This document shows positions 1 to 59,107 of a DNA stretch of 64,000 nucleotides, piece after piece. The stretch covers positions 248,001 through 312,000 of the forward strand of contig CAJQUW010016185.1 in the NCBI GenBank assembly GCA_907163375.1, read 5' to 3'. Positions within the stretch are counted from its first letter, which is position 1. Every line of letters begins with the position of its first letter. The DNA is from Prostheceraeus crozeri (Eukaryota > Platyhelminthes > Polycladida > Euryleptidae). Both the position numbers and the translations under genes were made by a program. The notes below the pieces were generated by a model. The model did no database searches and was not told where the DNA came from. It saw nothing but the letters and a program-made list of their open reading frames with translations.

Positions 1-350
1 TAAGTATAATCATCATTGTGTGGAGTAAATTGGGCAATATGTTTACACGCTTTATTCAAGAAATCATATATAAACTTTTTACATGATAAGAGATCTTTCT
101 TTGGCCACTGTGGAATGTATACTCGGCAGCCCTTTTCACATTGGTAAGCAGCTGTACGTCTCATATTAATAGTCATCACCTCATGATCAAAAGTATAGAC
201 ACAGTTGCTATAAACAAGTTGAGTGACACCCACTTCCCAATTCCCATTTAGCTGTTGTGCATGATCAATGGGAGTAGAAAAGAGTGCGGCTCGATTACTA
301 GTAAATCTCTTTGTAGCCGCATTGCTAAGCAAAATATGATAAAACGACAT
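1..350 (-). CDS. Penton-like minor capsid protein, N-terminal part, runs off the window
   Basis: An open frame starts at the ATG complementary to 348-350 and stays open to base 1 (116 codons seen). The first 60 residues follow the pattern typical of the Polinton/adintovirus penton-like protein: a start of the form F.hlLSNAAT, then F.......aqqLNGNWEVGVTQLVYSN. This protein forms the fivefold vertices of the capsid in the family model. It starts 36 bp from the divergent plus-strand gene at 386, so the two must share a very short intergenic region. That region carries an ATGCAAAG motif in this gene's sense direction 22 nt before the start. The assignment rests on pattern recognition, not a search. 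Confidence 0.72.
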   Translation of the reverse strand, partial: MSFYHILLSNAATKRFTSNRAALFSTPIDHAQQLNGNWEVGVTQLVYSNCVYTFDHEVMTINMRRTAAYQCEKGCRVYIPQWPKKDLLSCKKFIYDFLNKACKHIAQFTPHNDDYT

Positions 351-372: not shown

Positions 373-379
373 TTTGCAT
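373..379 (-). promoter_or_regulatory. ATGCAAA motif upstream of the penton-like gene
   Basis: ATGCAAAG is read on the minus strand, 22 nt before the penton-like ATG. The same motif in the same sense orientation lies before four other genes of the element (730, 3856, 6868 and 7641). It also sits 7 nt before the plus-strand gene at 386, in the opposite sense. Confidence 0.4.
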
Positions 380-385
380 AACATC

Positions 386-742
386 ATGAAGACTTGGATT
401 TTGGACTCTCTACAATATATCAGAGTTGATCGTGATGGAAACGTACATTTCAAAAATTCTCATGGTCATACATCAAGAGGAATTACATTAACATGGCGAC
501 AATTTGTCAACCTCAATGATATCATGAGGGATTTGGAATATTTTGAAACATTAAGATTCATCTCCCTGGGTGATCAAGTTTGGCTTCAACATTACAGAAA
601 TGAAATTCAAATCTACCATTCTCATTCCGCAAACTGTTTCTCATTTCGCAAATACAATTGGGAGAAGTATAGAAGATACATACATCGCTCCATCATGACA
701 TTTATTCGTCGTGAGTTCATCGCCCTACTATGCAAATCTTAA
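386..742 (+). CDS. PC4-like candidate ssDNA-binding protein, copy 1
   Basis: Encodes 118 residues from the ATG at 386. It is clearly paralogous to the next gene: DSLQ, then N.(H/Y)FK(N/D)S, I..DL.YF, Q(I/L)YHS, F.F and WEKY.R..HRSI occur at equivalent places in both. Each protein reads as two similar halves, a run of beta-type residues ending in a helix (GITLTWRQFVNLNDIM, then CFSFRKYNWEKYRRYI). The first half resembles the beta-hairpin plus helix of the PC4/p15 ssDNA-binding fold, where a G.SL...QW..L motif precedes the helix. This is a pattern match only. The neighbouring TBP-like gene makes a transcription or replication role plausible. A conserved Polinton protein of unknown fold is the alternative. 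Confidence 0.6.
   Translation: MKTWILDSLQYIRVDRDGNVHFKNSHGHTSRGITLTWRQFVNLNDIMRDLEYFETLRFISLGDQVWLQHYRNEIQIYHSHSANCFSFRKYNWEKYRRYIHRSIMTFIRREFIALLCKS
730..736 (+). promoter_or_regulatory. ATGCAAA motif upstream of PC4-like copy 2
   Basis: ATGCAAAT lies on the plus strand, 28 nt before the ATG at 765, in the gene's sense direction. It overlaps the last codons of copy 1, so its conservation there could be coincidental. Confidence 0.35.
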
Positions 743-764
743 TCAGACATGACTATCACGCACC

Positions 765-1415
765 ATGAGTTGGAAATTAGATTCCCTACAACGTATTGAA
801 ACGGATCATGATCGAAACGTCTATTTCAAAGATTCAACTGGAAATGTGAGAAGAGAGTTTGCTTTATCTTATCGCCATTTTCAATCTCTACATCATATCA
901 TGAAGGATTTGAAATACTTCTATATGAAAAGACATTCACGTATTGGAAATCGCATCTGGTTGCGCGTCAACAATCGGCGAATTCAACTCTATCATTCCCA
1001 ACTTCATACTAACTTCACATTTCATCAAGGTAGTTGGGAAAAGTATAAAAGGAAGGTACATCGCTCAATTTACTCATTCTTTCATCATGAAGCGCCATCG
1101 CTACACCATCGTCAACATTCTCCGTCGCTTCAGACTCTACACCAAAATCGATCTCACAACATTACACCAACAGCTTCCAAACAGCAAGTATTACCCGGGT
1201 CGTCCTCAAATGTTAGTGGTGAAGATGAACAATTCACGGAATCTTCAACTCTTCCCAAATGGGACTGTACAGATTCTCGGCGCCCTTTCTCATTCATCGG
1301 CGCAGTCAATGCGCTTAGAGCTACAAAGACTACTACGTCGGATATGGAAGAGGGAGAGGTGTGTGATGTCGAATCTGACTGTGGACAATATGGTGATCTC
1401 TACTCAATTGAGTGA
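765..1415 (+). CDS. PC4-like candidate ssDNA-binding protein, copy 2, with long C-terminal tail
   Basis: 216 residues from the ATG at 765, 22 nt after copy 1. The first 107 residues align end to end with copy 1 (DSLQRIETDHDRNVYFKDS, FALSYRHFQSL, WEKYKRKVHRSIYSF), so the pair arose by tandem duplication. The remaining 109 residues are Ser/Thr-rich with an acidic end and have no counterpart in copy 1. From 1087 onward the same DNA encodes the TBP-like protein in another frame, so the tail may be a by-product of that constraint or a true overprinted extension. The N-terminal half shows the G/hydrophobic-then-helix pattern of PC4-type folds. Function is inferred, not shown. Confidence 0.6.
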   Translation: MSWKLDSLQRIETDHDRNVYFKDSTGNVRREFALSYRHFQSLHHIMKDLKYFYMKRHSRIGNRIWLRVNNRRIQLYHSQLHTNFTFHQGSWEKYKRKVHRSIYSFFHHEAPSLHHRQHSPSLQTLHQNRSHNITPTASKQQVLPGSSSNVSGEDEQFTESSTLPKWDCTDSRRPFSFIGAVNALRATKTTTSDMEEGEVCDVESDCGQYGDLYSIE

Positions 1416-1631
1416 CAGTCTATCATTTTTGAAGATTCGTACCAGCAGTTACAGTTTGTGTTATGAACCCGAACTTTTTCTGCAGCTCTCATTAGTTGTT
1501 GGTTACCTGTGCATGTGGCAATCTTTCATAATAGTAAAGTGATCATTACTGGACTAAAATCTCATGTACAAGCAAATATGATCCTAGACTATCTCATTGA
1601 GTATGTACGTACCCAGCGGATTGTAAAATAA
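1087..1631 (+). CDS. TATA-binding-protein-like (TBP core) protein, one frameshift
   Basis: From ATG 1087 the frame encodes the first TBP lobe: KIDL...L (residues 20-26), KYYPGR (34-39), then R..L.LFPNGTV..LGA.S (51-68), matching the canonical K.DLK..AL, EYNPKR and TALIFSSGKMV.TGAKS blocks. The second lobe starts with LTVDNMV and reaches YEPELF (126-131), identical to the signature in eukaryotic TBPs. At a T5 run (1475-1479) the homology moves to the -1 frame and continues through VAIFHNSKVIITGLKS to TAA 1629-1631. The joined length, about 181 residues, equals a TBP core. Of the four DNA-intercalating phenylalanines, three positions keep F and the first (KRF in TBPs) reads GRP. It overlaps the tail of the preceding gene. 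The break may be a mutation, an assembly error or programmed slippage. Confidence 0.85.
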
Positions 1632-1656: not shown

Positions 1657-1662
1657 TTTATT
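1657..1662 (-). terminator. AATAAA polyadenylation signal of the protease transcript
   Basis: The complement of TTTATT gives AATAAA on the minus strand, overlapping the TAA stop of the protease (1658-1660). Two convergent transcripts therefore end within about 35 bp. Confidence 0.6.
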
Positions 1663-2119
1663 TCAAATCATGATAGAACTTACAAATCATTTTTTCATTA
1701 GAGGATGGATTACATGAAAAGTTTTGAATAACAGATGCAAATCGAGATACATGTAAACGTCTTAAGATGAAGTACAGTACAAAAGCACCACACGTTGATG
1801 AAAGTGGATGTTGTAGTATGCGTTCATTTCGCTGATATTGACGCGTATGTTTTCTCAACCACTGCTGTGTTGGTATATTTGGAGGTTGAGCAAGAGAGTC
1901 AAATAGTTCACCACGTCGGTCTTCTCCAATAAAGATCGCTTTCCAATGCTCACCGCCTAAATTCTGCGAATGAGTGTTTAGTACAATAAAGATGGGATAG
2001 TGATTTACTGCAGGTGGTAAGGTATCGAGTGAATAGACATTATCGAAAGCTTTCAACGTCGCTTCGTCTGCATTACGCTGCACTTTAGTCTTAATATCGT
2101 CAGCAGTCAACCAACTCAT
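1658..2119 (-). CDS. Adenain-like cysteine protease (maturation protease)
   Basis: 153 residues, the usual size of Polinton/adintovirus proteases. It carries the adenain order of catalytic residues: His58 in GGEHWKA, Asp74 in LFDSL, Gln103 and Cys110 in SSTCGAFVLYF. Family members cleave capsid and core precursors during virion maturation in the nucleus. The ATG overlaps the stop of the capsid gene by one base (TAATG), an arrangement known from termination-reinitiation. An AATAAA signal overlaps its own stop. All key residues are present, so the protein could be active. Last gene of the capsid-protease group. Confidence 0.88.
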   Translation of the reverse strand: MSWLTADDIKTKVQRNADEATLKAFDNVYSLDTLPPAVNHYPIFIVLNTHSQNLGGEHWKAIFIGEDRRGELFDSLAQPPNIPTQQWLRKHTRQYQRNERILQHPLSSTCGAFVLYFILRRLHVSRFASVIQNFSCNPSSNEKMICKFYHDLK

Positions 2120-3396
2120 TAACGATTATACTGAAGAATTACGTCACGATACTTTGTAATTTCAATATTTGAATCGAAGACTGCATAAATTAATACATTG
2201 ATCGTCTCAGGTAGTGTTCTTTTGAACGTTAAATCCAAACGAATATTATGAGGCACGTTCGCTTGACGATAGGGTGCACTAATATCGCTGTCAGCAGTCA
2301 AATCAAATGCATAAATAGTATATCCACTCTTAAACTCTTTCATAGTCAGTCCGTTGGTGTCATCCGTATTGTAAAAGCCAAAAACATCCATAAAATCAAC
2401 ATAACTGCGCATAAATTGATCTGAAGCAAAATCTGGTTTGTAGGGTGGACCAGGATGACTCACACCATTTACACGTAAAGCAATTTCACTTAAATGATTG
2501 TGTTTAAAATTGAAAGGATTCTTCTTTATATTACCATTAAATGCATCATTTTCAACCATTGCCACCATGAGGAGCTTCGGTGCTTCCGATGGAAAGAGGC
2601 CATCTTTCATGAAACTCTTTTGATCTTTCGGAATTGTAAAGGTGAGAAGCTTTGTATGCTGAATGGGGTAAATGGCATTTTGGCGGTTAAGGCCTTCAGC
2701 ATGCCCTCTAATGACACTTGGATTCGGTACTACTCGACGAATGTAAAGTGCAATATCTTCCACATGAATTCTAAAATTGTCAACTTTAGCAAATGCATTC
2801 AGCGCAAATTCAGGCTTATTCAATGTCAGCTTGAGTCGCATGCTGGTATTACACAGTAAAAACTTTGACTGTCTAAAGAAGTCTAAATTCAGCGGACCAT
2901 ATAGCTGACATACTCTACTATCTTTAATCATAGCAGATCGCTTTACAAAGCCACTGTTTGTTTCAACATCAAATTTTCCTGCTTCATCTCTGTACCATCC
3001 CATGGCTTCCATATGACTTTTTTGTGCTGCTGGATGAAACTGTGATACATGATTGAAATATGATTTATAGGGATAATCGCTTTGACCACCTTCCACTTGC
3101 TGCTCTCCAATCGTTAGAGAAACATCACGAAGTAATGTAGTCAATGGTAAATTGTTCAGTCCAACTTTATGTGCATCGTCAATAGCAGTTCCATCTGCTT
3201 GCTGAATTCTAAACCTCAAATCAAGCATCGCATAACTCAAATCTATGTAGTCATCACTACCACCAGGAATAGCAAATTCAATGGGGCCAGCATTCTCAGC
3301 TGTTCGAGGATGATAATCTACAATACTTGAACTAAGAATATCTGTCTGTATGGCTTGTTGATCGAACTAACAAAAACCGGAAGTTTTACACTCCAT
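2119..3396 (-). CDS. Major-capsid-like protein (F54H12.2-like), early in-frame stop
   Basis: The frame is open from 3366 down to 2119 (415 codons), with in-frame DNA continuing to an ATG at 3394-3396 after a TAG at 3367-3369. Near the N-terminus the pattern PIEF.IPG..DDYIDLSYAML matches the hallmark of the invertebrate F54H12.2 family, the Polinton/adintovirus major capsid (double jelly-roll) candidate. Further blocks are DLTF near the end and a conserved central SMRLKL. Homology begins upstream of the first internal ATG, so translation must start earlier than that. The TAG interrupts the short N-terminal arm. Possible explanations are a nonsense mutation, readthrough or an alternative start. 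The start is 3 bp after the stop of the pX-like gene, and its stop overlaps the protease ATG. Confidence 0.8.
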
Positions 3397-3398
3397 GA

Positions 3399-3824
3399 TT
3401 AGAAGTTATAGCAGCGTCGTCGTTTAGCGCCTGATGAATGATTAGAGCCTCTGCGACGTTTGCGTGAATGCCTTTTGACTGAAGATCGCACCTTATTCAT
3501 TCGTTTAGGTGATTTCTTTCCTTGAGTAACACCAGCAATGGTCTGCTTCAATGTTTTTAAACCGCGTTCCTTCCCACGATTCAACAAACTGCTCTTAAAA
3601 CTTCTACCTCTGGAAAGATCACTAGCAACATCACCAGCAAAGCCAACGGCATTACTTAAAACATTTCGTTTTAAAGATCTACCGACATTGGATATGAGAG
3701 GTGCTACAACAGATTTCAGTGCACCAAGTATGCTACCTCCACGTTGGCGGCGAGCACCGATGTAAATTTGTCCTCCGCCACTTACATAGGAGGGTCGTGA
3801 ATAAAATGAGGCAGTTGGATTCAT
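3399..3824 (-). CDS. Small basic glycine-rich core protein (adenovirus pX/pVII-like in character)
   Basis: 141 residues beginning MNPTASFYSRPSYVSGGGQ. A Gly/Arg N-terminal segment (GARRQRGGSILGAL), a middle hydrophobic-to-basic part and a very basic tail (KRHSRKRRRGS, AKRRRC) suggest DNA condensation in the virion and nuclear targeting. GG dipeptides could be adenain sites, but I cannot verify that. It opens the pX-capsid-protease group; an ATGCAAAG motif lies 31 nt before its ATG in the sense direction. Similar small basic proteins sit beside the capsid gene in other Polintons. The sequence itself is low in information, so the family call is tentative. Confidence 0.6.
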   Translation of the reverse strand: MNPTASFYSRPSYVSGGGQIYIGARRQRGGSILGALKSVVAPLISNVGRSLKRNVLSNAVGFAGDVASDLSRGRSFKSSLLNRGKERGLKTLKQTIAGVTQGKKSPKRMNKVRSSVKRHSRKRRRGSNHSSGAKRRRCYNF

Positions 3825-3855: not shown

Positions 3856-3862
3856 TTTGCAT
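3856..3862 (-). promoter_or_regulatory. ATGCAAA motif upstream of the pX-like/capsid/protease group
   Basis: ATGCAAAGTT on the minus strand, 31 nt before the ATG at 3824. Its ten bases are identical to those before the penton-like gene. Confidence 0.45.
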
Positions 3863-3865
3863 GAA

Positions 3866-5086
3866 TCACTGTCGATCACTTAGATGAAAGATGTCGGCAC
3901 GACGCATCCAAGAGTTCATACTTGAAGGATAACCAGTCCATTTAACAAGACACCATTCTTCACCTTGCCGTTTTTTACATCGAATGATTTTCTCTACCAA
4001 ATATGTTTCACTTTCAGTGACTACCTCAATCTCATCGCGGTAAAAGCTACCCTCAATTTCTTCATTATCGTAATCTTTCAACTTGTAGGTGGTCGGAGAG
4101 TCTTTTTGATTAATCCTTGATACTGTAAATACCTCCTCTGTCCAATTCGGAAGGTACCCTTTAGCAAAAACACTTTTCACTTTTGAGATACGAACTTTAT
4201 CGCCAATTTTCACATCACTTTTCACATGAGTGCGTTTACGTTGGAATGATTCGCGCACTTTATCTACATTGTCAGCATTTACATCTACTGGTCTGAGTCC
4301 AATAGAACGATGGATAGAGTGATTGTAGGCATGGAGTGTATCTTGTAGAACCTTTGTCCAATTTTGTGTCAAGTTGGCAGTAAAATGTCGCCACAAGCGA
4401 TTTTTTAATGTGCGATTAAAACGTTCAACGAGTGCAGCTTTATAAGCGCTCTTTACACTAAACAACTCAATGTCATGGCTCTCAAATAATCTTGTCACAT
4501 GCTGATTTTCAAACTCTTTTCCTTGATCACTCTGAATTCTTTTTGGAATGCGACCTTCTCGAAAAATTGTTTGGAATGCTTTTGCTACTCCTTTCCCTTC
4601 TTTAGTTTTTAAAGGTTGAGCCCACGCATAACGCGAGAAAATATCAATGACGGTTAAAATAAAATTATTGCCCGAGTTATGTTTTGAAATGGAGGCAACA
4701 TCGCACAAATCTGCTTGCCACTGTTCATCGATGTCATGAACAATATAATGGCGGGTGTGGTACTTCTTTTTCGCTTGTTTGTGGAGTGTATAGGTAGCCT
4801 GACCCTTTAACCATCGTTTCACTTGTGATTGTGGAAGACCACTCGCTTTTGATAATTTCTTGATAGATGCAAATCCTGCCGGATGTTTTACATCATAATA
4901 GATTGACTTCAAACGTTCAGTCGATGACGGCTGACTCTTTTTCCTCCTTCTCATCTTTTTTCTTTCTTGCCTTTCTACATTTACAACAACTGCAGCATTT
5001 AGCTTTAGCGGTTTTGCGATCGTGTTCACATTGCTTAGGGGTTTCATTATGAGAGCTGGCGCAGCAAGTGCAAGTGACAACGACAT
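3866..5086 (-). CDS. Retroviral-type (rve) integrase with C-terminal chromodomain
   Basis: 406 residues. The zinc-binding/HTH-like N-terminal part includes IYYDVKHPAGF and LPQSQVKRWL, typical of Polinton integrases. The catalytic core carries D126 (WQADL), D187 (QSDQGKEFEN) and E221 (LVERFNRTLKNR). A chromodomain ends the protein (YLVEKIIR, EEWCLVKWTGY, NSWMR). The enzyme would insert the linear element DNA into the host genome; the chromodomain probably reads histone marks. The first 45 or so residues overlap the Cys-rich ORF in another frame and lack homology that I can see, so the true start may be an internal ATG such as that at residue 45. No broken codon is visible and the enzyme may be intact. 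Confidence 0.9.
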   Translation of the reverse strand: MSLSLALAAPALIMKPLSNVNTIAKPLKLNAAVVVNVERQERKKMRRRKKSQPSSTERLKSIYYDVKHPAGFASIKKLSKASGLPQSQVKRWLKGQATYTLHKQAKKKYHTRHYIVHDIDEQWQADLCDVASISKHNSGNNFILTVIDIFSRYAWAQPLKTKEGKGVAKAFQTIFREGRIPKRIQSDQGKEFENQHVTRLFESHDIELFSVKSAYKAALVERFNRTLKNRLWRHFTANLTQNWTKVLQDTLHAYNHSIHRSIGLRPVDVNADNVDKVRESFQRKRTHVKSDVKIGDKVRISKVKSVFAKGYLPNWTEEVFTVSRINQKDSPTTYKLKDYDNEEIEGSFYRDEIEVVTESETYLVEKIIRCKKRQGEEWCLVKWTGYPSSMNSWMRRADIFHLSDRQ

Positions 5087-5133: not shown

Positions 5134-5826
5134 TTAATAGTCTGAGAACATGTATTTCCTAGGAGGAGCTGTTTTACGTTTTCCTTTTACCAGTTTTAGT
5201 GGCGATGTAGATCTACGTCGAGTTCTTCCTCTTGTTTGCTTAGTGAGTGTGGGAGGGGATGTAGCAGGTGACGTCTTAAACCAATTTGTTGGCATTTTCA
5301 TCGCCTGAAGCATTGGAGTAGTAGCCACTGTTGAATCAAGTTCTTTCAATGTCTCATTATTTAAAGCAAATTTTGGCACATTATGCTTTTTCAATAGTTT
5401 AAGAAAGTATGACCAACCAGGTGGAACATAGCCCTGACGGCGCTTTCTACGTGTCGCATACTGAATCAAGTCTTCATAACGTGAAGCATCAATCACTTTA
5501 TTTTCATCTGTAATGATTTCTCCTCTATCATTTACATTGAGATGGGGTTCAATACTGTTGAAAAGAGATATGGCATGTGCGCGAGATGCTAAAGGTGTAG
5601 CAGTCGATACAGAGTCACGCATCTTATTCTTCAAGTTTTTCAATTGCTCAACAGTTTCCAATTGTAATAATACAGCACGATGTGGATCTTTGATGTGAAC
5701 ATTTTGCTGATAATCTATTTCTTTCCTATACATTTGATTTGCAAGAGGTTGCTTTACTTGCTGCATGGCAGTCAATTGTACATATTCATCCTGAGGAATA
5801 ACAATCATGCGAGAATAAGAACTCAT
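5134..5826 (-). CDS. Conserved-looking Polinton protein of unknown function, basic C-terminus
   Basis: 230 residues beginning MSSYSRMIVIPQDEY. It has helix-forming Gln/Leu-rich segments (AVLLQLETVEQLKNLKNK), a GYVPPGWSYFLKLLKKHNVP block in the second half and a strongly basic Ser/Thr/Pro-rich tail ending MFSDY. Proteins of this general form occur between the ATPase and integrase in related elements as I remember them, but I cannot name the function. The ATG overlaps the ATPase stop (ATGA). The basic tail would suit nucleic acid binding or a core role. Fully open, no sign of decay. Confidence 0.65.
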   Translation of the reverse strand: MSSYSRMIVIPQDEYVQLTAMQQVKQPLANQMYRKEIDYQQNVHIKDPHRAVLLQLETVEQLKNLKNKMRDSVSTATPLASRAHAISLFNSIEPHLNVNDRGEIITDENKVIDASRYEDLIQYATRRKRRQGYVPPGWSYFLKLLKKHNVPKFALNNETLKELDSTVATTPMLQAMKMPTNWFKTSPATSPPTLTKQTRGRTRRRSTSPLKLVKGKRKTAPPRKYMFSDY

Positions 5827-6488
5827 AGTTTGTAGATAATCATGGGAGTTTTCAAAATATCACTTCGAAATCTAAATTCTTCCGGACACTCTTGCGTAAA
5901 GTCAATGAATAAGTAACCGTATGGTTTTTCAGTAGCTGCTTGAAAAATTTCAATTAAGGCTTTTGATCCTCTGGGTGCAACTTGTCGCGCTAAAATTTCA
6001 AATTGACTTTTATCTCGCGGATTCTTGAAAATAGCATAATAGTGTGTATTCAGGTTTCGTGTACGAGCTTCTTTTCCATCAGGAAACAAATTTTGTGTAA
6101 TATAGATGATAAAACACCTTTTATGGTGTGCTGCGCGAGTGAACATATCTGTAACATCTTTTGAATTCTTACTTTCTTTTAATAAATCATCCAATACAAC
6201 AACATCATTAGACTGAAGTTTATCCACTGGAATAATTCCTTCATGTCGAATAAAGTTGCGACTTTGCAATTCCTGAAACAGCGACGGTTGATAAATACCA
6301 TAACACCAAATCACTCGATTGATAGGTTCCTTAAACAACTCAATTCTTTTATCCAATAAATTCAGCGTGAAAACAGTTTTACCTGCATGAGATGGACCTG
6401 ATACAGTCAGAACTTTATCGCATTGAAGTCTGAAATCCATTTTATTACTTTGAGACTCAACATTTGCATAATTAACGCTTAGAGCCAA
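5823..6488 (-). CDS. FtsK/HerA-superfamily DNA-packaging ATPase
   Basis: 221 residues, normal length for the Polinton/adintovirus packaging ATPase. Walker A is GPSHAGKT (residues 31-38), Walker B is VVVLDD (96-101), and a sensor-like IIYITQN follows. The A32-like family drives genome packaging into capsids. The first 17 bases overlap the preceding basic gene and the stop overlaps the next start as ATGA, so the transcript appears polycistronic. All motifs are intact. Confidence 0.9.
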   Translation of the reverse strand: MALSVNYANVESQSNKMDFRLQCDKVLTVSGPSHAGKTVFTLNLLDKRIELFKEPINRVIWCYGIYQPSLFQELQSRNFIRHEGIIPVDKLQSNDVVVLDDLLKESKNSKDVTDMFTRAAHHKRCFIIYITQNLFPDGKEARTRNLNTHYYAIFKNPRDKSQFEILARQVAPRGSKALIEIFQAATEKPYGYLFIDFTQECPEEFRFRSDILKTPMIIYKL

Positions 6489-6828
6489 AGATATTTCCCA
6501 ATAGGTTGCCCACGGCAGGAGCTATCATTGGAAGTATTGCTGAAAGGAAACCGCCCTTTTGTGTTAGAGTTTTCCTCTTTCTTTGAAGGGCGACTTTAGG
6601 ATTGGAGATGAAACGCAATTTTGTAGCATATCGCTTAAGTAACTTTCGTTGTTTTGGTGCTAATTTCTTCGTCCTCAACTTTCTCACATGAGAAATAATT
6701 TCACAAATGAATTTATCGTTAGCATGTCGTATAGCATTGTATCGCTGATTTGCTTTCATTCGTCGGAGAGCTTGAATGGCTGAAGAAAACTTTTGACTTT
6801 TACGTTTCGTCATTTTACGTTTCGCCAT
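6472..6828 (-). CDS. Small basic protein with GG-flanked amphipathic tail (pVI-like in character)
   Basis: 118 residues. A Lys/Arg-rich body (MAKRKMTKRKSQKF, RKLRTKKLAPKQRKLLKR) is followed by QKGGFLSAILPMIAPAVGN, a hydrophobic amphipathic stretch after a diglycine, then GNIFGSKR. Related elements carry a similar KGGFL-type tail; by analogy with adenovirus pVI a protease-released membrane-active helix is possible, but this is inference. It leads the ATPase group, with an ATGCAAAT motif 39 nt before its ATG. Confidence 0.6.
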   Translation of the reverse strand: MAKRKMTKRKSQKFSSAIQALRRMKANQRYNAIRHANDKFICEIISHVRKLRTKKLAPKQRKLLKRYATKLRFISNPKVALQRKRKTLTQKGGFLSAILPMIAPAVGNLLGNIFGSKR

Positions 6829-6867: not shown

Positions 6868-6874
6868 TTTGCAT
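6868..6874 (-). promoter_or_regulatory. ATGCAAA motif upstream of the ATPase group
   Basis: ATGCAAATG on the minus strand, 39 nt before the ATG at 6828, in the sense direction of the five-gene group ending with the integrase. Confidence 0.45.
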
Positions 6875-6879
6875 AGGTA

Positions 6880-7205: not shown

Positions 7206-7616
7206 TCAATTTTTCTTTATGGAAAGTTGAATGTGAATATCTGAAATCGCTTCAATCACTAGACTGCTACCATGATGGTTAAATGCGTTAAGACGTTCAG
7301 CAATTTTTATCATATGTCTTTTAAAAAATTCTTCGGGGTGATCTACCACTTCCATTGAATAAGAAGTAAAATGGAAAGAGCGAGTTTCCACCTCTTCCTT
7401 TCCAAAATGACTAAACTTAATTTTCGCAACTAATCGCGCCATGACAATGCTATCAGAGAATGTATTCATTAACTCTAGAAATAGAGTGCTAGCATCATCG
7501 AGCACTGCTTCGATGTCAGTCTCATCTTTATGAAAATTTATCACATAATCTTGAACAGCTCCTTTTAAACTTTGCCTATGAAAACGTAATGTTCCGCAGT
7601 CGTTTGAGAAAGACAT
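7206..7616 (-). CDS. Small conserved-looking protein of unknown function
   Basis: 136 residues starting MSFSNDCGTLRFHRQSLKGA. The second half, with RSFHFTSYSME, EEFFKRHMIKIAERLNAF and GSSLVIEAISDIHIQL, resembles a domain that in other Polintons precedes or forms the N-terminus of protein-primed DNA polymerase B. If so, this is either a stand-alone version or the remnant of a lost polymerase. That link is from memory and weak. An ATGCAAT motif lies 24 nt before the ATG. Confidence 0.55.
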   Translation of the reverse strand: MSFSNDCGTLRFHRQSLKGAVQDYVINFHKDETDIEAVLDDASTLFLELMNTFSDSIVMARLVAKIKFSHFGKEEVETRSFHFTSYSMEVVDHPEEFFKRHMIKIAERLNAFNHHGSSLVIEAISDIHIQLSIKKN

Positions 7617-7640: not shown

Positions 7641-7647
7641 ATTGCAT
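7641..7647 (-). promoter_or_regulatory. ATGCAAT motif upstream of the gene at 7616
   Basis: A minus-strand ATGCAATGG, 24 nt before the ATG. One base differs from the ATGCAAA form elsewhere in the element. Confidence 0.35.
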
Positions 7648-7703
7648 GAAAACAACAACTCTTCTCATAGTAACATTTATTGAATAACGGTAACAAGCAT
7701 GCA

Positions 7704-8286: not shown

Positions 8287-8487
8287 CTATAACATATTAC
8301 AAAATGAAGAATTACATCGATGCTTTTCACGACAAAATACACAAATGATATGATGGCAACGAAGATGTAAAATGTATCTAATAAGACCACGTCTACGACA
8401 CTCAAAGCACATAAGCGAATTGTCATAGGGTAGAGTTAGGAAAGGACTAGTAATTCTCCTTCTTTGATTTGCGTTTTGATGTAGCAT
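8287..8487 (-). CDS. Small RING-like zinc finger protein
   Basis: 66 residues from the ATG at 8485-8487. Ligand series CFEC, then CHHIICVFC (C-x-H-x2-C-x2-C), then HRCNSSFC fits a short RING. It overlaps the 3' end of the preceding gene by 41 bases in another frame, so its translation would need reinitiation or alternative splicing. It is the second RING-like ORF of the element; the two show no clear similarity outside the ligands. Confidence 0.5.
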   Translation of the reverse strand: MLHQNANQRRRITSPFLTLPYDNSLMCFECRRRGLIRYILHLRCHHIICVFCREKHRCNSSFCNML

Positions 8488-9222
8488 TCTTCTCCGACTT
8501 GCGCTTCGTACCACTGCTGTTGAGGATTTGATCAATTATGTCATCTACGCTGGCTGGTTTTGGAATATATAGGATGGATTCCATATGCATGGAGAGAGAG
8601 GCTATTTTATTATCTTTGTGCTGACCATAATATAGTCCATTCACTTTGAAAAGGATATCCCAAGTACCTTCTCCGAGCTCGTCGCATGTGATGATTGTTG
8701 AATGATCTCCCTCCTTCTTATAGTAAGTACACCAATGTGATACCGGTAGGCAAATTTGGTTACCATCCCAAATCTTTCTATAGGGAGTATCCTTGTCATC
8801 TCTCGCTTTCCACTCTTGAGCAAGAGGAGTAGGAATGTCCATATTTAATGTCACGTACTCCTCAATAATATCGAGTTGGCGGCGAATGTACGTACTCACG
8901 GGGATCAGTATGTAGTCCCCATACTGATTGCGCATTATCTTGACATCCGTGGAAGGGAGCATTCCCGTTTGGAGTACTACGCTATGATCGTCATAACGCA
9001 AGACTTGTTTAAATTTACGCTGTAGCGGTGTAGGATTATGTACCTTGGTTGTTTCTTCCACTGGCCTCAGTTGTAGATGATCTGATCGGAGCGAACCTTG
9101 TAACGTTTGACCGTCATTTTGTCCTACTAGTGCAGCAGATGGAGTAGATGCCTGAAAATGAAAAAAGATTGTATTAAGTTTACGTTCAAGGGAGGAGAGG
9201 GAGGGAAGTAGCGACTTACCAT
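8447..9222 (-). CDS. Unknown protein of a spliced gene (ATG | 68-bp intron | main exon)
   Basis: Main exon 8447-9151 encodes 234 residues; the start codon comes from a 3-base coding exon at 9220-9222. The ATG is followed directly by GTAAGT (9219-9214), and the 68-bp intron ends TTTTCATTTTCAG at 9152, giving a phase-0 join M|ASTPS. No ATG is present before residue 40 in the main exon, so splicing decides the N-terminus. The protein has YGDYILIPVSTYIRRQLD and WCTYYKKEGDHS segments and a Lys-rich, probably nuclear-targeting tail (GTKRKSEKN, SKRKSKKE). No family recognised. A TATA box lies about 95 bp upstream of the ATG, so this is the best-defined transcription unit of the element. Confidence 0.65.
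9152..9219 (-). other. Spliceosomal intron directly after a start codon
   Basis: Donor GTAAGT and acceptor TTTTCATTTTCAG with a pyrimidine-rich stretch between. Removal joins ATG to an open frame of 234 codons. Confidence 0.7.
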
Positions 9223-9311
9223 TTTAGTTGGATAATAGAATAGAGAGAGAAAATGTGCGTCCGTCACTCGTGTGATTCAACGATGGAATGATTCTCACTG
9301 TGGAAGGCTCG

Positions 9312-9322
9312 CTATTTATAAA
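9312..9322 (-). promoter_or_regulatory. TATA box of the spliced gene
   Basis: TTTATAAATAG on the minus strand, 90 to 100 bp before the ATG at 9222. With a usual TATA-to-start spacing the leader would be about 65 nt. An element-encoded TBP-like protein makes this site of special interest. Confidence 0.6.
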
Positions 9323-9388
9323 GAAATGCTTGATTCTCATTGGATGATGATCCTCATTGGACAATAACATCATGCTGATTCCAAAGCC

Positions 9389-10360
9389 GTCAGCGAAATT
9401 TGATGAAACAACCTTTGGTAAAGGTCCCAGGTCGAAATTCCACACTTTGGAAAATTTTTAATTTTTCCCATACAAAGTCACTCTGACACTTAGGATTTTT
9501 TCAGGTGAGCTCCGACCTAAAATCTTGTAACCGCTCTAACTTTTGAACGGCTGCTCCGATTGACTCGCAACGAAAAATGCGGTCGAGCAATGTTTCATCC
9601 TCTTTCCAATGCAAGTCGAACGAACAAAATCCGTCCACTAGAACCAAAGTTAGAACAAAGGGGGGGGTCAGCGAAATTTGATGAAACAACCTTTGGTAAA
9701 GGTCCCAGGTCGAAATTCCACACTTTGGAAAATTTTTAATTTTTCCCATACAAAGTCACTCTGACACTTAGGATTTTTTCAGGTGAGCTCCGACCTAAAA
9801 TCTTGTAACCGCTCTAACTTTTGAACGGCTGCTCCGATTGACTCGCAACGAAAAATGCGGTCGAGCAGTGTTTCATCCTCTTTCCAATGCAAGTCGAACG
9901 AACAAAATCCGTCCACTAGAACCAAAGTTAGAACAAAGGGGGGGGGTCAGCGAAATTTGATGAAACAACCTTTGGTAAAGGTCCCAGGTCGAAATTCCAC
10001 ACTTTGGAAAATTTTTAATTTTTCCCATACAAAGTCACTCTGACACTTAGGATTTTTTCAGGTGAGCTCCGACCTAAAATCTTGTAACCGCTCTAACTTT
10101 TGAACGGCTGCTCCGATTGACTCGCAACGAAAAATGCGGTCGAGCAGTGTTTCATCCTCTTTCCAATGCAAGTCGAACGAACAAAATCCGTCCACTAGAA
10201 CCAAAGTTAGAACAAAGGGGGGGGTCAGCGAAATTTGATGAAACAACCTTTGGTAAAGGTCCCAGGTCGAAATTCCACACTTTGGAAAATTTTTAATTTT
10301 TCCCATACAAAGTCACTCTGACACTTAGGATTTTTTCAGGTGAGCTCCGACCTAAAATCT
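9389..10360. repeat. 278-bp tandem repeat array near the element end (3.5 copies)
   Basis: Units begin with GTCAGCGAAATTTGATG at 9389, 9667, 9946 and 10224 (periods 278, 279, 278) and are nearly identical, differing mainly in the length of a G-run (7 to 8 G) at each junction. The last copy stops around 10,360. A decayed further unit is recognisable at 10,450-10,530 (AAATCCGTCCACTAGAA, then a G-run). The near identity implies recent homogenisation. Identical 82-codon open frames in the units are a consequence of the repeat. Position beside the inferred end suggests part of the terminal inverted repeat. Confidence 0.9.
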
Positions 10361-32479: not shown

Positions 32480-33560
32480 GCAACGTACATGTACAATTAC
32501 GAAATTGAGTACAATGGTAAATTTTATATTCAAACGCAGGGCTGTCCCATGGATGCACATTCTGCTCCTCTTTTCGCGATTATTTTTATGAACGATATTG
32601 AGACGGAAGTTCTTTACAAATTGAAGCAGGACCATAAAATTGAACCACTCATTTTCAAGCGTTATATTGACGATGTAATCATGGGTCCGTTTGATCATGA
32701 CATGGAAATATTTAAGATGATCAGAAATGTTTTTAATTCCATCAATGAGAGCATTCAGTTTACTTTAGATGTTCCTAATAGCGAAACCAAATTGAATTTT
32801 TTGGACATTTCTGTATTCGTAAAAAATGAATGCAGCCACTATAAAATTCAACAATCAACTTTATCAAAATGGTTACAAAAAAACTAAAGTATGACAACAA
32901 AAGAAAATTACAAAATAAGCCAGACTTAAAAAATTTCGTTATTTGGAAATGTAATTTCCTCAATGATACATGCAACAGAAAGTTGACGGCTTTAGTAAAA
33001 AAAATACGATCTTCCCATAAAATTAGTTAACAAACATGGCAGGTACTTAAAGCAGTGTATTAATCAACCTGTAAATAGAGACAATAAACATCAGAATTGT
33101 GATATCTGCGACAAATTACCAGATCAGCAAAGCTGCAGTGACAAGTTCACAGTGTATAAATTTACTTGTATTCTTTGCCATAAATTTTACATTGGTCAAA
33201 CTGCCCGTCCTTTTTATCAGAGATACAATAATAAACGTTGCTTAGTTACCAATAACAACAATAGCGCGCTGTCAGACCACGCGAGACATGAACACGAAAA
33301 CAGTTTGACTATTCATCACTTTACCATAGAATTCTTGAACAAATTTCAGAGTCCTGTAGAGGCAAGAATCGCCGAAGCCAAATACATTCAACAACAGTGT
33401 CCGTCTCTCAATAGAAGAGAGGAGCTCACCCAGTGGTAGCCGATCTCTCAACCTATATTATGCCACCGCACCATCGCGGTTTAGGCCTACTCCTTGCTGG
33501 ACCCGAGGATGCTGCTGCGCAGCGAAAGCTCGTCCGCCTGTATATATTTTTAGCTTGTAC
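32480..33560 (+). mobile_element. Penelope-like retroelement fragment (RT and GIY-YIG)
   Basis: Frame 32,489-32,887 has RT motifs of the Penelope type: QTQGCPMDAHSAPLFAIIF, FKRYIDDVIMG (YxDD intact) and LNFLDISVFV. After frame breaks, 33,152-33,439 encodes a GIY-YIG endonuclease domain with KFYIGQTARPF.QRY, SDHARHEH, RIAEAKYIQQ and CPSLNRREEL. The 5' part of the RT is missing. Behind the stop, at 33,498-33,540, a stem-forming stretch (GAGGATGCTGCTGCGCAGCGAAAGC shortened here to its halves GCTGCTG and CGAAAGC) resembles sequences found in Penelope-like 3' ends. Confidence 0.85.
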
Positions 33561-58117: not shown

Positions 58118-59107
58118 TCAAGGCATCAATCTGCCCATACGTCTGGAAGACCTTCCCATCTTATTTGCAGTGATGGCACTCATGTTTTGGGAGGCGAGTT
58201 TTAGTAAGGTCAAATTCCTCTGTTGTCCAGTGTAGTTGTGTAACTGCTCACGAATCTCAGCTACTTCTCTCTTGAAAGCCGCTTTCCACATGGAAAACGC
58301 GTTCTCTGCGATATTGAGAAATGGAGAGTAGGGCGGTAAGTACCTAATAGAGTGTCCCTCTCGCAAACTGACTTCACGGGCTCTTGTGGCACGGAGCATT
58401 ATCCATGACGAATACAAGAGGTCCAGCCCCAGCCGCAACGGGCGCCAGCCAGGAGTTAAATCTCTAACAGGAGGTTCCGCCTTCGTAGAATTCATGATGG
58501 ACGACACCTTCATTAGAGACCGCCAAGATGAGAGTAAAATTCCGCCCGCGCTGTCCATGAACAATCCTGACAGCTCGCTCTCCCCGTCTGGCACGACCTC
58601 GTGTGCGACTGAGCCATAAATTAAAGCCGGATTCGTCCACAAAAAAAAATGTTGGCGGATGGTTTGCGTTGATCGTGTGCAGATACCAGTTCGCATACTC
58701 GGCCCTTTCCACTTTGACGTCATGGCTATTGCGGTTGACTTGAACAGTCCATTTTCTTTAAGATGATAAGACGATTTCTCAGACATGTGCTGATAGTTTG
58801 AATTGAGACAAGATGGCTTGTCCGGCATCCGCGCTTGTAGAGCAGCTTTGATTTGGGCTAACGTGAATTCCGGTTGGGATTCAACAATCTCTACCACAGT
58901 ATTTGCCATATCTTCATCCATCTTTTGGTGTCGTCTTCCTCCTCTGGGACGCTCAATGACTCCTTCAAGTATATAACGATGTACTATTGAATGCGCAGTA
59001 CCCCGTTTTACACCGAATACTCGAGCGGCTTCAATATAATCATCTCCGGCTTCGTGAGCCATAATGATTCTGCGTTTAACATCAGAAGGTATTCGCTGGC
59101 GCTCCAT
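58118..59107 (-). pseudogene. Tc1/IS630-like transposase nested in the TIR element
   Basis: The N-terminal paired HTH (MERQRIPSDVKRRIIMAHEA, RGTAHSIVHRYI, ERPRGGRRHQKMDED) is in one frame to about 58,740. The DDE part is in a second frame (58,464-58,712: FFFVDESGFNLWLSRTRGRA) and then GPLVFVMDNAPCHKS at about 58,390-58,434. The first frame resumes with IRYLPPYSPFLNIAENAFS. All three acidic residues are recognisable, but at least two frameshifts separate them. No own TIR identified; it may be a later insertion. Confidence 0.82.

Follow-up and report, generated by a model that had tools for sequence, protein, structure and literature searches.

A TATA-binding protein homologue with an altered lobe-1 DNA face carried by Polinton elements of the flatworm Prostheceraeus crozeri

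Background

TATA-binding proteins (TBPs) encoded by DNA viruses are already known, among them those of giant viruses and mirusviruses (available parts of PMC10132985 and PMC12085832). In herpesviruses, the TBP-like KSHV ORF24 acts on late promoters; according to Table 1 of PMC12529657, within the portion of that paper available, it is altered at A101, L114, V122, T124, V161 and L205, while F99 and V71 are kept. Late promoters of beta- and gammaherpesviruses carry a form of the TATA box that differs at its fourth position (excerpts of PMC12529657 and PMC4893493), which in EBV reads TATT (PMC4893493, same excerpt). The accessible text of a paper on vertebrate Mavericks names no TBP, and the words TATA, TBP and transcription are absent from it (PMC8097293). 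No report of a TBP in an animal Polinton was found in the literature searched, which left out the founding paper on adintoviruses.

The locus described here lies in a 64,000-nucleotide stretch of the Prostheceraeus crozeri assembly GCA_907163375.1 (contig CAJQUW010016185.1, positions 248,001 to 312,000; hereafter the window). The analysis confirmed that window positions 1087 to 1631 encode a two-lobe TBP homologue carried by a Polinton.

Identity of the TBP-like gene

The gene occupies two frames separated by a single break within lobe 2 (Table 1). The 151-amino acid product of frame 1 covers positions 2 to 84 of the 85 in the Pfam TBP profile, and that of frame 2 has 54 amino acids. A profile derived from the family matches the former at positions 3 to 132 (E=5e-46) and the latter at positions 132 to 180 (E=7e-17). 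Relatives cover both lobes: seven of the 12 matches of a single-sequence search (E 1.9e-23 or better) are 177 to 202 amino acids long and include both lobes, all 12 members of the first family alignment match Pfam TBP, and one relative, P0002, does so in two stretches (E=2.1e-20). The profile of the 12 relatives aligns to positions 1 to 173 of 179 of the archaeal TBP 2z8u (E=3.7e-24). A profile search of public protein data gave 369 family matches at E<=1e-5, of which 120 were listed, and the family proteins encoded in the P. crozeri genome measure 173 to 181 amino acids from the likely start, that is, a TBP core only. Chance resemblance to TBP is excluded.

The first-pass annotation, made from the window sequence, had proposed a gene with both TBP lobes in order at the length of a TBP core. 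The order is borne out by the Pfam match of frame 1, the family-profile match of frame 2 and the 2z8u alignment of relatives, and profile matches to both lobes across the family bear out the homology. Core length holds for the relatives, but the window copy is frame-broken inside lobe 2. The motifs F..G.V..LGA.S and IF..SKVIITG.K had been placed correctly in lobes 1 and 2, respectively; YEPELF, which had been assigned to lobe 1, actually belongs to lobe 2, where it aligns with YEPELFPGL of the host TBP.

Table 1. Genes and candidate promoter boxes of the element in the window
Feature	Position	Strand	Remarks
Element gene cut by window edge	3..350	-	Homologous to 461-aa ORF of L011; 45.6% over 79 aa in class 2
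TATGCAAA box	373..380	-	30 nt before ATG of gene 3-350
118-aa gene, same small family as 765-1415	386..742	+	No Pfam match
TATGCAAA box	729..736	+	36 nt before ATG 765
Upstream gene, 216 aa, paralogue of 386-742	765..1415	+	About 108 codons into TBP lobe 1, other frame
TATAAAA box	1044..1050	+	43 nt before TBP ATG, inside overlapping upstream ORF
TBP-like gene, frame 1: lobe 1 and start of lobe 2	1087..1542	+	Pfam TBP E=8.8e-14
TBP-like gene, frame 2: remaining lobe 2 to stop	1467..1631	+	Pfam TBP E=0.026 on its own, below Pfam's cut-off
Cysteine protease, C48/C5-like	1658..2119	-	Pfam C48 E=0.001, just under cut-off; class-2 homologue over cut-off
Capsid-type protein (presumed)	2119..3228	-	No Pfam match; 425-aa frame in L032
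Small basic protein, virion-core-like by composition only	3399..3824	-	No Pfam match over cut-off
CATGCAAA box	3856..3863	-	39 nt before ATG of 3399-3824
Integrase, rve core and chromodomain	3866..5086	-	Passes the Pfam cut-off for rve (9.6e-11) and Chromo (6.5e-07)
Packaging ATPase, A32-like (weak)	5823..6440	-	Pfam Pox_A32 E=0.0064, below cut-off
TATGCAAA box	6463..6470	-	30 nt before ATPase ATG
Adenovirus pX-like small protein (weak)	6472..6828	-	Pfam Adeno_PX E=0.0024, below cut-off
TATGCAAA box	6868..6875	-	47 nt before pX-like ATG
CATGCAAT, weaker match	7641..7648	-	32 nt before ATG of 7206-7616

The surrounding element

As the first-pass annotation had stated, the TBP gene lies within the element's own gene block, flanked by the minus-strand element genes 3-350 and 1658-2119. 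The element, which extends beyond the window edge, carries two Polinton hallmarks, an rve-chromo integrase and an adenovirus-like cysteine protease (C48 over cut-off in class 2, defined below). With Polintons/Mavericks and adintoviruses it shares this integrase and the C48-type protease, to which may be added a putative, weakly matched A32-like ATPase and a large ORF of polymerase type. The last is a 1273-amino acid stop-to-stop ORF in L009, left of the window, with an Endonuclease VII domain (E=5.8e-07) and a candidate DTDS-type motif. It gave no polymerase match in Pfam, PHROG or PDB; it is called PolB here, after the protein-primed family B DNA polymerase, by analogy with the usual Polinton architecture. 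The capsid-type label of 2119-3228 is likewise provisional. In the window copy this gene is open from an internal ATG, with an in-frame stop further upstream. Candidate double jelly-roll capsid ORFs had no Pfam match over cut-off, and the one compared with PDB had no match there; the class-2 ATPase piece had no A32 match in Pfam. A comparison for terminal inverted repeats in one class-3 locus gave only 13-base matches, at chance level.

Copies, classes and conserved neighbourhood

The window's own assembly (2.05 Gb) was scanned with Pfam TBP. All 150 candidates scored, of 10982, were over cut-off, and four of them are host exons, two of TBP (C9306) and two of a TRF2-like gene (C3829). With a class-2 protein as query, at least 150 full-length relatives were found (150 of 11199 candidates scored). 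Those listed are three class-2 copies and 147 others that are 53 to 55% identical to the query and cover 168 or more of 173 residues. No internal stop is present in 145 of the 150. Some loci appear in both lists, and all these counts are minimum values.

Twenty-six loci (L006, L008, L010-L028, L032 and L047-L050; L004, L005 and L007 repeat L010, L011 and L012) fall into three classes, between which TBP protein identity is 41 to 55%. Class 1, the window's kind, has 10 loci with TBPs 94 to 98% identical to window frame 1. In the three class-2 loci, identity is 39 to 40% for TBP, 39 to 43% for the protease, 52 to 54% over the longest piece for the capsid-type protein and, in two of the three, 64% for the integrase, which is broken in L010. 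The 13 class-3 loci have TBPs of 41 to 46% identity.

The protease gene adjoins TBP in every class-1 and class-2 locus (10/10 and 3/3), and a 3-350-type gene lies on the other side of TBP in nine of the 10 class-1 loci (all except L025) and in all three of class 2. In class 3, a PolB homologue is near TBP in 12 of the 13 loci, in L017 as a piece of only 61 residues; the thirteenth, L050, comprises merely 3.5 kb of sequence. Protease, capsid-type and integrase genes were not found around two class-3 loci, in 17 kb (C3151) and 27 kb (C11285), so that class 3 may not be a complete Polinton. Class-3 elements with polymerase-type and TBP genes are abundant (L016-L019, L021-L023, L027 and L028), and no protease, integrase or capsid-type gene was seen in the stretches of them that were examined. 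Outside the assembly, TBP or ATPase queries of IMG/VR confirmed no related locus, a control scan with canonical TBPs returning 12 loci there, and none was found among GTDB contigs or phage records.

Origin and constraint

The conserved protease and 3-350-type neighbours, kept even where TBP identity is 39 to 40%, support the view that the TBP gene belongs to the element, and conservation of this neighbourhood across element copies upholds the first-pass statement that it is not a flanking host gene. The host has an ordinary TBP of at least two exons and also a TRF2-like gene. Apart from TBP homology itself, little speaks for a host TBP captured recently or inserted by chance, an origin with a vanishingly small probability: the host TBP is split over exons and only 18 to 26% identical to the four family members compared with it, the gene's place is conserved in three classes, and the family is a separate clade. 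A recent host retrocopy, an outcome that would have undone the first-pass reading, is refuted by the same evidence and by the altered lobe-1 face.

The tree comprised 37 rows: 22 chosen family members, four cellular TBPs and 11 IMG/VR viral TBPs (nine distinct). The 22 members form one clade (100/100) apart from the cellular, including host and archaeal, and viral TBPs compared, as the first-pass annotation had proposed to check, and the family's origin is not resolvable in it because of long stems. The gene is under constraint, with a mean pairwise dN/dS of 0.42 in class 1 (seven of 10 copies), 0.45 in class 2 (three copies) and 0.40 in class 3 (nine of 13), values that come from intact frames only and are biased towards constraint; in between-class comparisons, synonymous sites are near saturation.

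The overlapping upstream gene

In five copies from the three classes, the upstream gene runs 101 to 112 codons into the TBP frame. Synonymous shuffles of TBP in one to two copies per class kept the overlapping frame open in zero to three of 5000 cases, and we regard the overlap as real. It is seen in the window (765-1415 and 1087-1415), in L011 (4306-4905) and in L016 (4220-4897), and the overlap tails in all three classes share an FSF..A motif and end at or near SIE. The products of 386-742 and 765-1088 are small tandem paralogous proteins beside the TBP gene. The 386-742 protein has five database matches, one of them identical, and the longest contig of one relative is as long (1771 nt) as the longest one of P0002, suggesting that the 386-742/TBP pair is conserved elsewhere. 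A likeness to PC4/SUB1 noticed by eye in the 118-amino acid upstream genes found no support in Pfam or in profile searches of PDB and was discarded.

DNA face and TFIIB-type residues

Contact residues were scored in 81 aligned members, picked for length among the proteins listed; residue numbers are taken to be those of yeast TBP and are consistent with Table 1 of PMC12529657. In lobe 2, F190, F207 and T215 are kept in all 81 members and N159 and V161 in 80; at L205 all 81 members have A, T or S, and the residue at V213 is I, M, V or L. Lobe 1 retains F116 in every member and N69 in all 77 with a letter there. Its replacements include four found in 81/81 members (P at F99, M at A101, Q at V122, and L, M, F or I at T124), together with Q at L114 (74/81) and M, H, L or F at V71 (75 of the 79 members with a letter). 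Three of the four intercalating phenylalanines (F116, F190 and F207) are kept, with F99 being P throughout. Among TFIIB-type residues, E188 is present in 81/81 members, E186 in 79/81 and L189 in 75/81. The alignment shows that the predicted lobe-2 DNA contacts and TFIIB-type contacts are kept and that the predicted lobe-1 DNA face is rebuilt. Judged by this alignment, the loss of F99 is divergence within a family of clear sequence homology, and it could weaken DNA binding instead of retargeting it.

Eukaryotic and archaeal TBPs (PF00352) have the same two repeats, full core length, lobe-2 phenylalanine pair, N159, V161, T215 and TFIIB-type YExELF motif, whereas the family has P, M, Q, Q and L in lobe 1 where cellular TBPs mostly have F99, A/G101, L114, V122 and T124. 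Neither P at F99 nor Q at V122 occurs in any of 15 comparison TBPs (four cellular and 11 other viral ORFs); F99 is kept in 14 of them, and some viral ones vary at L114 or T124. Like the giant virus and mirusvirus TBPs, the family is encoded by DNA elements of viral type, and the 11 IMG/VR TBP ORFs (nine distinct), whose contigs may not be of giant virus or mirusvirus origin, fall outside its clade. TRF2/TBPL is also a divergent animal TBP with the TFIIB motif partly kept; the host TRF2-like exon (L002), a name presumed from the sequence, differs from the Polinton TBP in its YEPELH motif and in having an exon structure. EBV BcRF1 and KSHV ORF24 are viral TBP-like proteins altered at overlapping DNA-contact positions, which for ORF24 are A101, L114, V122, T124 and L205 (PMC12529657, in the portion available). 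However, ORF24 is large and multi-domain whereas the Polinton protein is a TBP core only, and the Rpb1-binding N-terminus and C-terminal DNA-binding domain of BcRF1/ORF24 are absent from the 173- to 181-amino acid Polinton proteins. In addition, a section heading in the available text on the ORF24 model calls direct TFIIB binding incompatible, whereas the Polinton protein keeps the TFIIB motif.

Promoter boxes

Of 21 upstream regions from the three classes, 19 have TATAAA[AT] at a distance of 43 to 47 nt from the TBP start codon, the exceptions being L018 and L021 (L020 gave no start); the box is also present before TBP in five further loci. It doubles as Tyr-Lys codons in the overlapping gene, so a promoter role is only one of two reasons for which it may be conserved.

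Some other element genes have GC-centred boxes 30 to 47 nt before the ATG, of the TATGCAAA type in class 1 and TAAGCWW in class 2. The pattern [TC]A[AT]GC[AT][AT], which was picked post hoc after inspection of the data, was counted at -55 to -20 against 10000 shuffles. It occurs in seven of 17 class-1 genes, a set including 8447-8962 and the polymerase (shuffle mean 1.03; 0/10000 shuffles reach the count), and in five of 15 class-2 genes (shuffle mean 0.74; 8/10000). In class 3 it was found before one of eight genes, no more than expected by chance (1933/10000). The class-1 boxes are TATGCAAA in four genes and CATGCAAA, CATGCAAT and TATGCTAA in one each. An unbiased 5-mer enumeration gave TGCAA in class 1 (reached by 57/3000 shuffles) and AGCAA in class 2 (84/3000), and in a 7-mer test ATGCAAA was present in five of 14 class-1 regions, a count reached by 0/2000 shuffles and 14/5000 random window sets. 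The protease, integrase, capsid-type and polymerase genes are without a box.

AAGCAA had first been noticed in six of 10 class-2 upstream windows; among class-2 genes checked afterwards, pX2 has AAGCAA, the ATPase has TAAGCTT and pX1 has neither. The boxed class-2 genes are P514, P461, pVI-like, ATPase and pX2, whose class-1 counterparts are boxed too if pX2 is assumed to be the counterpart of pX; pX1, which matches pX slightly better (37.7 vs 34.9%), is without a box. The chance of this overlap, calculated by hand for 13 shared genes of which seven are boxed in class 1, is 21/1287. Each box has GC at positions 4-5, which in TATA are A/T and on which V122 and T124 presumably act.

Proposed mechanism and alternatives

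Little is known, to our knowledge, about how Polintons control their own genes, and a TBP of their own would give these virus-like transposons a dedicated means of redirecting host Pol II. From the sequence, we infer that the family protein would bind promoters and TFIIB at a particular time and direct Pol II. The reading that we consider probable is that host TBP reads the ordinary TATAAAA box and so initiates expression of the element's own TBP. The saddle of this viral protein, with its canonical lobe 2 and altered lobe 1, would then bind element promoters and recruit host TFIIB and Pol II.

An extension of this proposal is more doubtful. The viral TBP may have as its targets the GC-centred boxes, those of TATGCAAA type in class 1 and TAAGCWW in class 2, and this would give the element an early/late switch comparable to the one in beta- and gammaherpesviruses; this box reading is judged less likely because class 3 gave one of eight. 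Also tentative is the wider suggestion that a large lineage of animal Polintons has a re-specified TBP whose lobe 1 would read TAwGCwww, with the TBP gene also read in two overlapping frames, and that this would provide an early/late Pol II switch of its own, evolved apart from the herpesvirus late TBP and partly at the same positions. A naturally occurring TBP in which half of the DNA face has been exchanged, together with class-specific candidate boxes, would offer a way to study how the middle of the TATA box is recognized by TBP.

The boxes may have another reader. The textbook octamer is ATGCAAAT. It precedes three class-1 genes but is present within coding sequence too. The TATGCAAA boxes could conceivably be octamer sites for host POU factors, a suggestion as doubtful as the switch and one that competes with the box reading, not with the identity of the TBP; the class-2 counterparts, however, have at about the same spacing TAAGCWW, a sequence that does not correspond to an octamer. 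As for the protein, it might act as a decoy, binding host TFIIB or TFIID partners and lowering host transcription while having no part in the choice of element promoters. A kept TFIIB-type motif and an altered lobe-1 DNA face fit such a role, but the lobe-2 DNA contacts and lobe-1 N69 and F116 would then be retained needlessly, and the invariance of several replaced lobe-1 residues points to a specific new contact, so that a decoy seems unlikely. That the protein serves replication or packaging and not transcription, bending DNA at the termini for instance, is, if anything, slightly less likely still: the class-3 gene is near the polymerase homologue in 12 of 13 loci, but TBP in classes 1 and 2 has the protease and the 3-350-type gene as its closest neighbours, and residues of the TFIIB-contact type would hardly be near-invariant if no pre-initiation complex were formed.

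Other features of the window

Several further features were noticed by eye. The right end of the element holds a probable intron-containing gene (9220-9340, ORF 8447-8962): on the minus strand GTAAGT comes directly after an ATG near 9216, and upstream there is a TATA box resembling TTTATAAAT. Just beyond the last element gene, 9370-10360 is a tandem array of near-identical units of about 270 bp. Other mobile elements appear as well. A reverse transcriptase ORF at 20615-23680 matches Pfam RVT_1 (E=2.6e-17) and appears to have integrase-like ORFs beside it; a second reverse transcriptase-like fragment is at 32489-32887, and a mariner-like transposase at 58118-59107.
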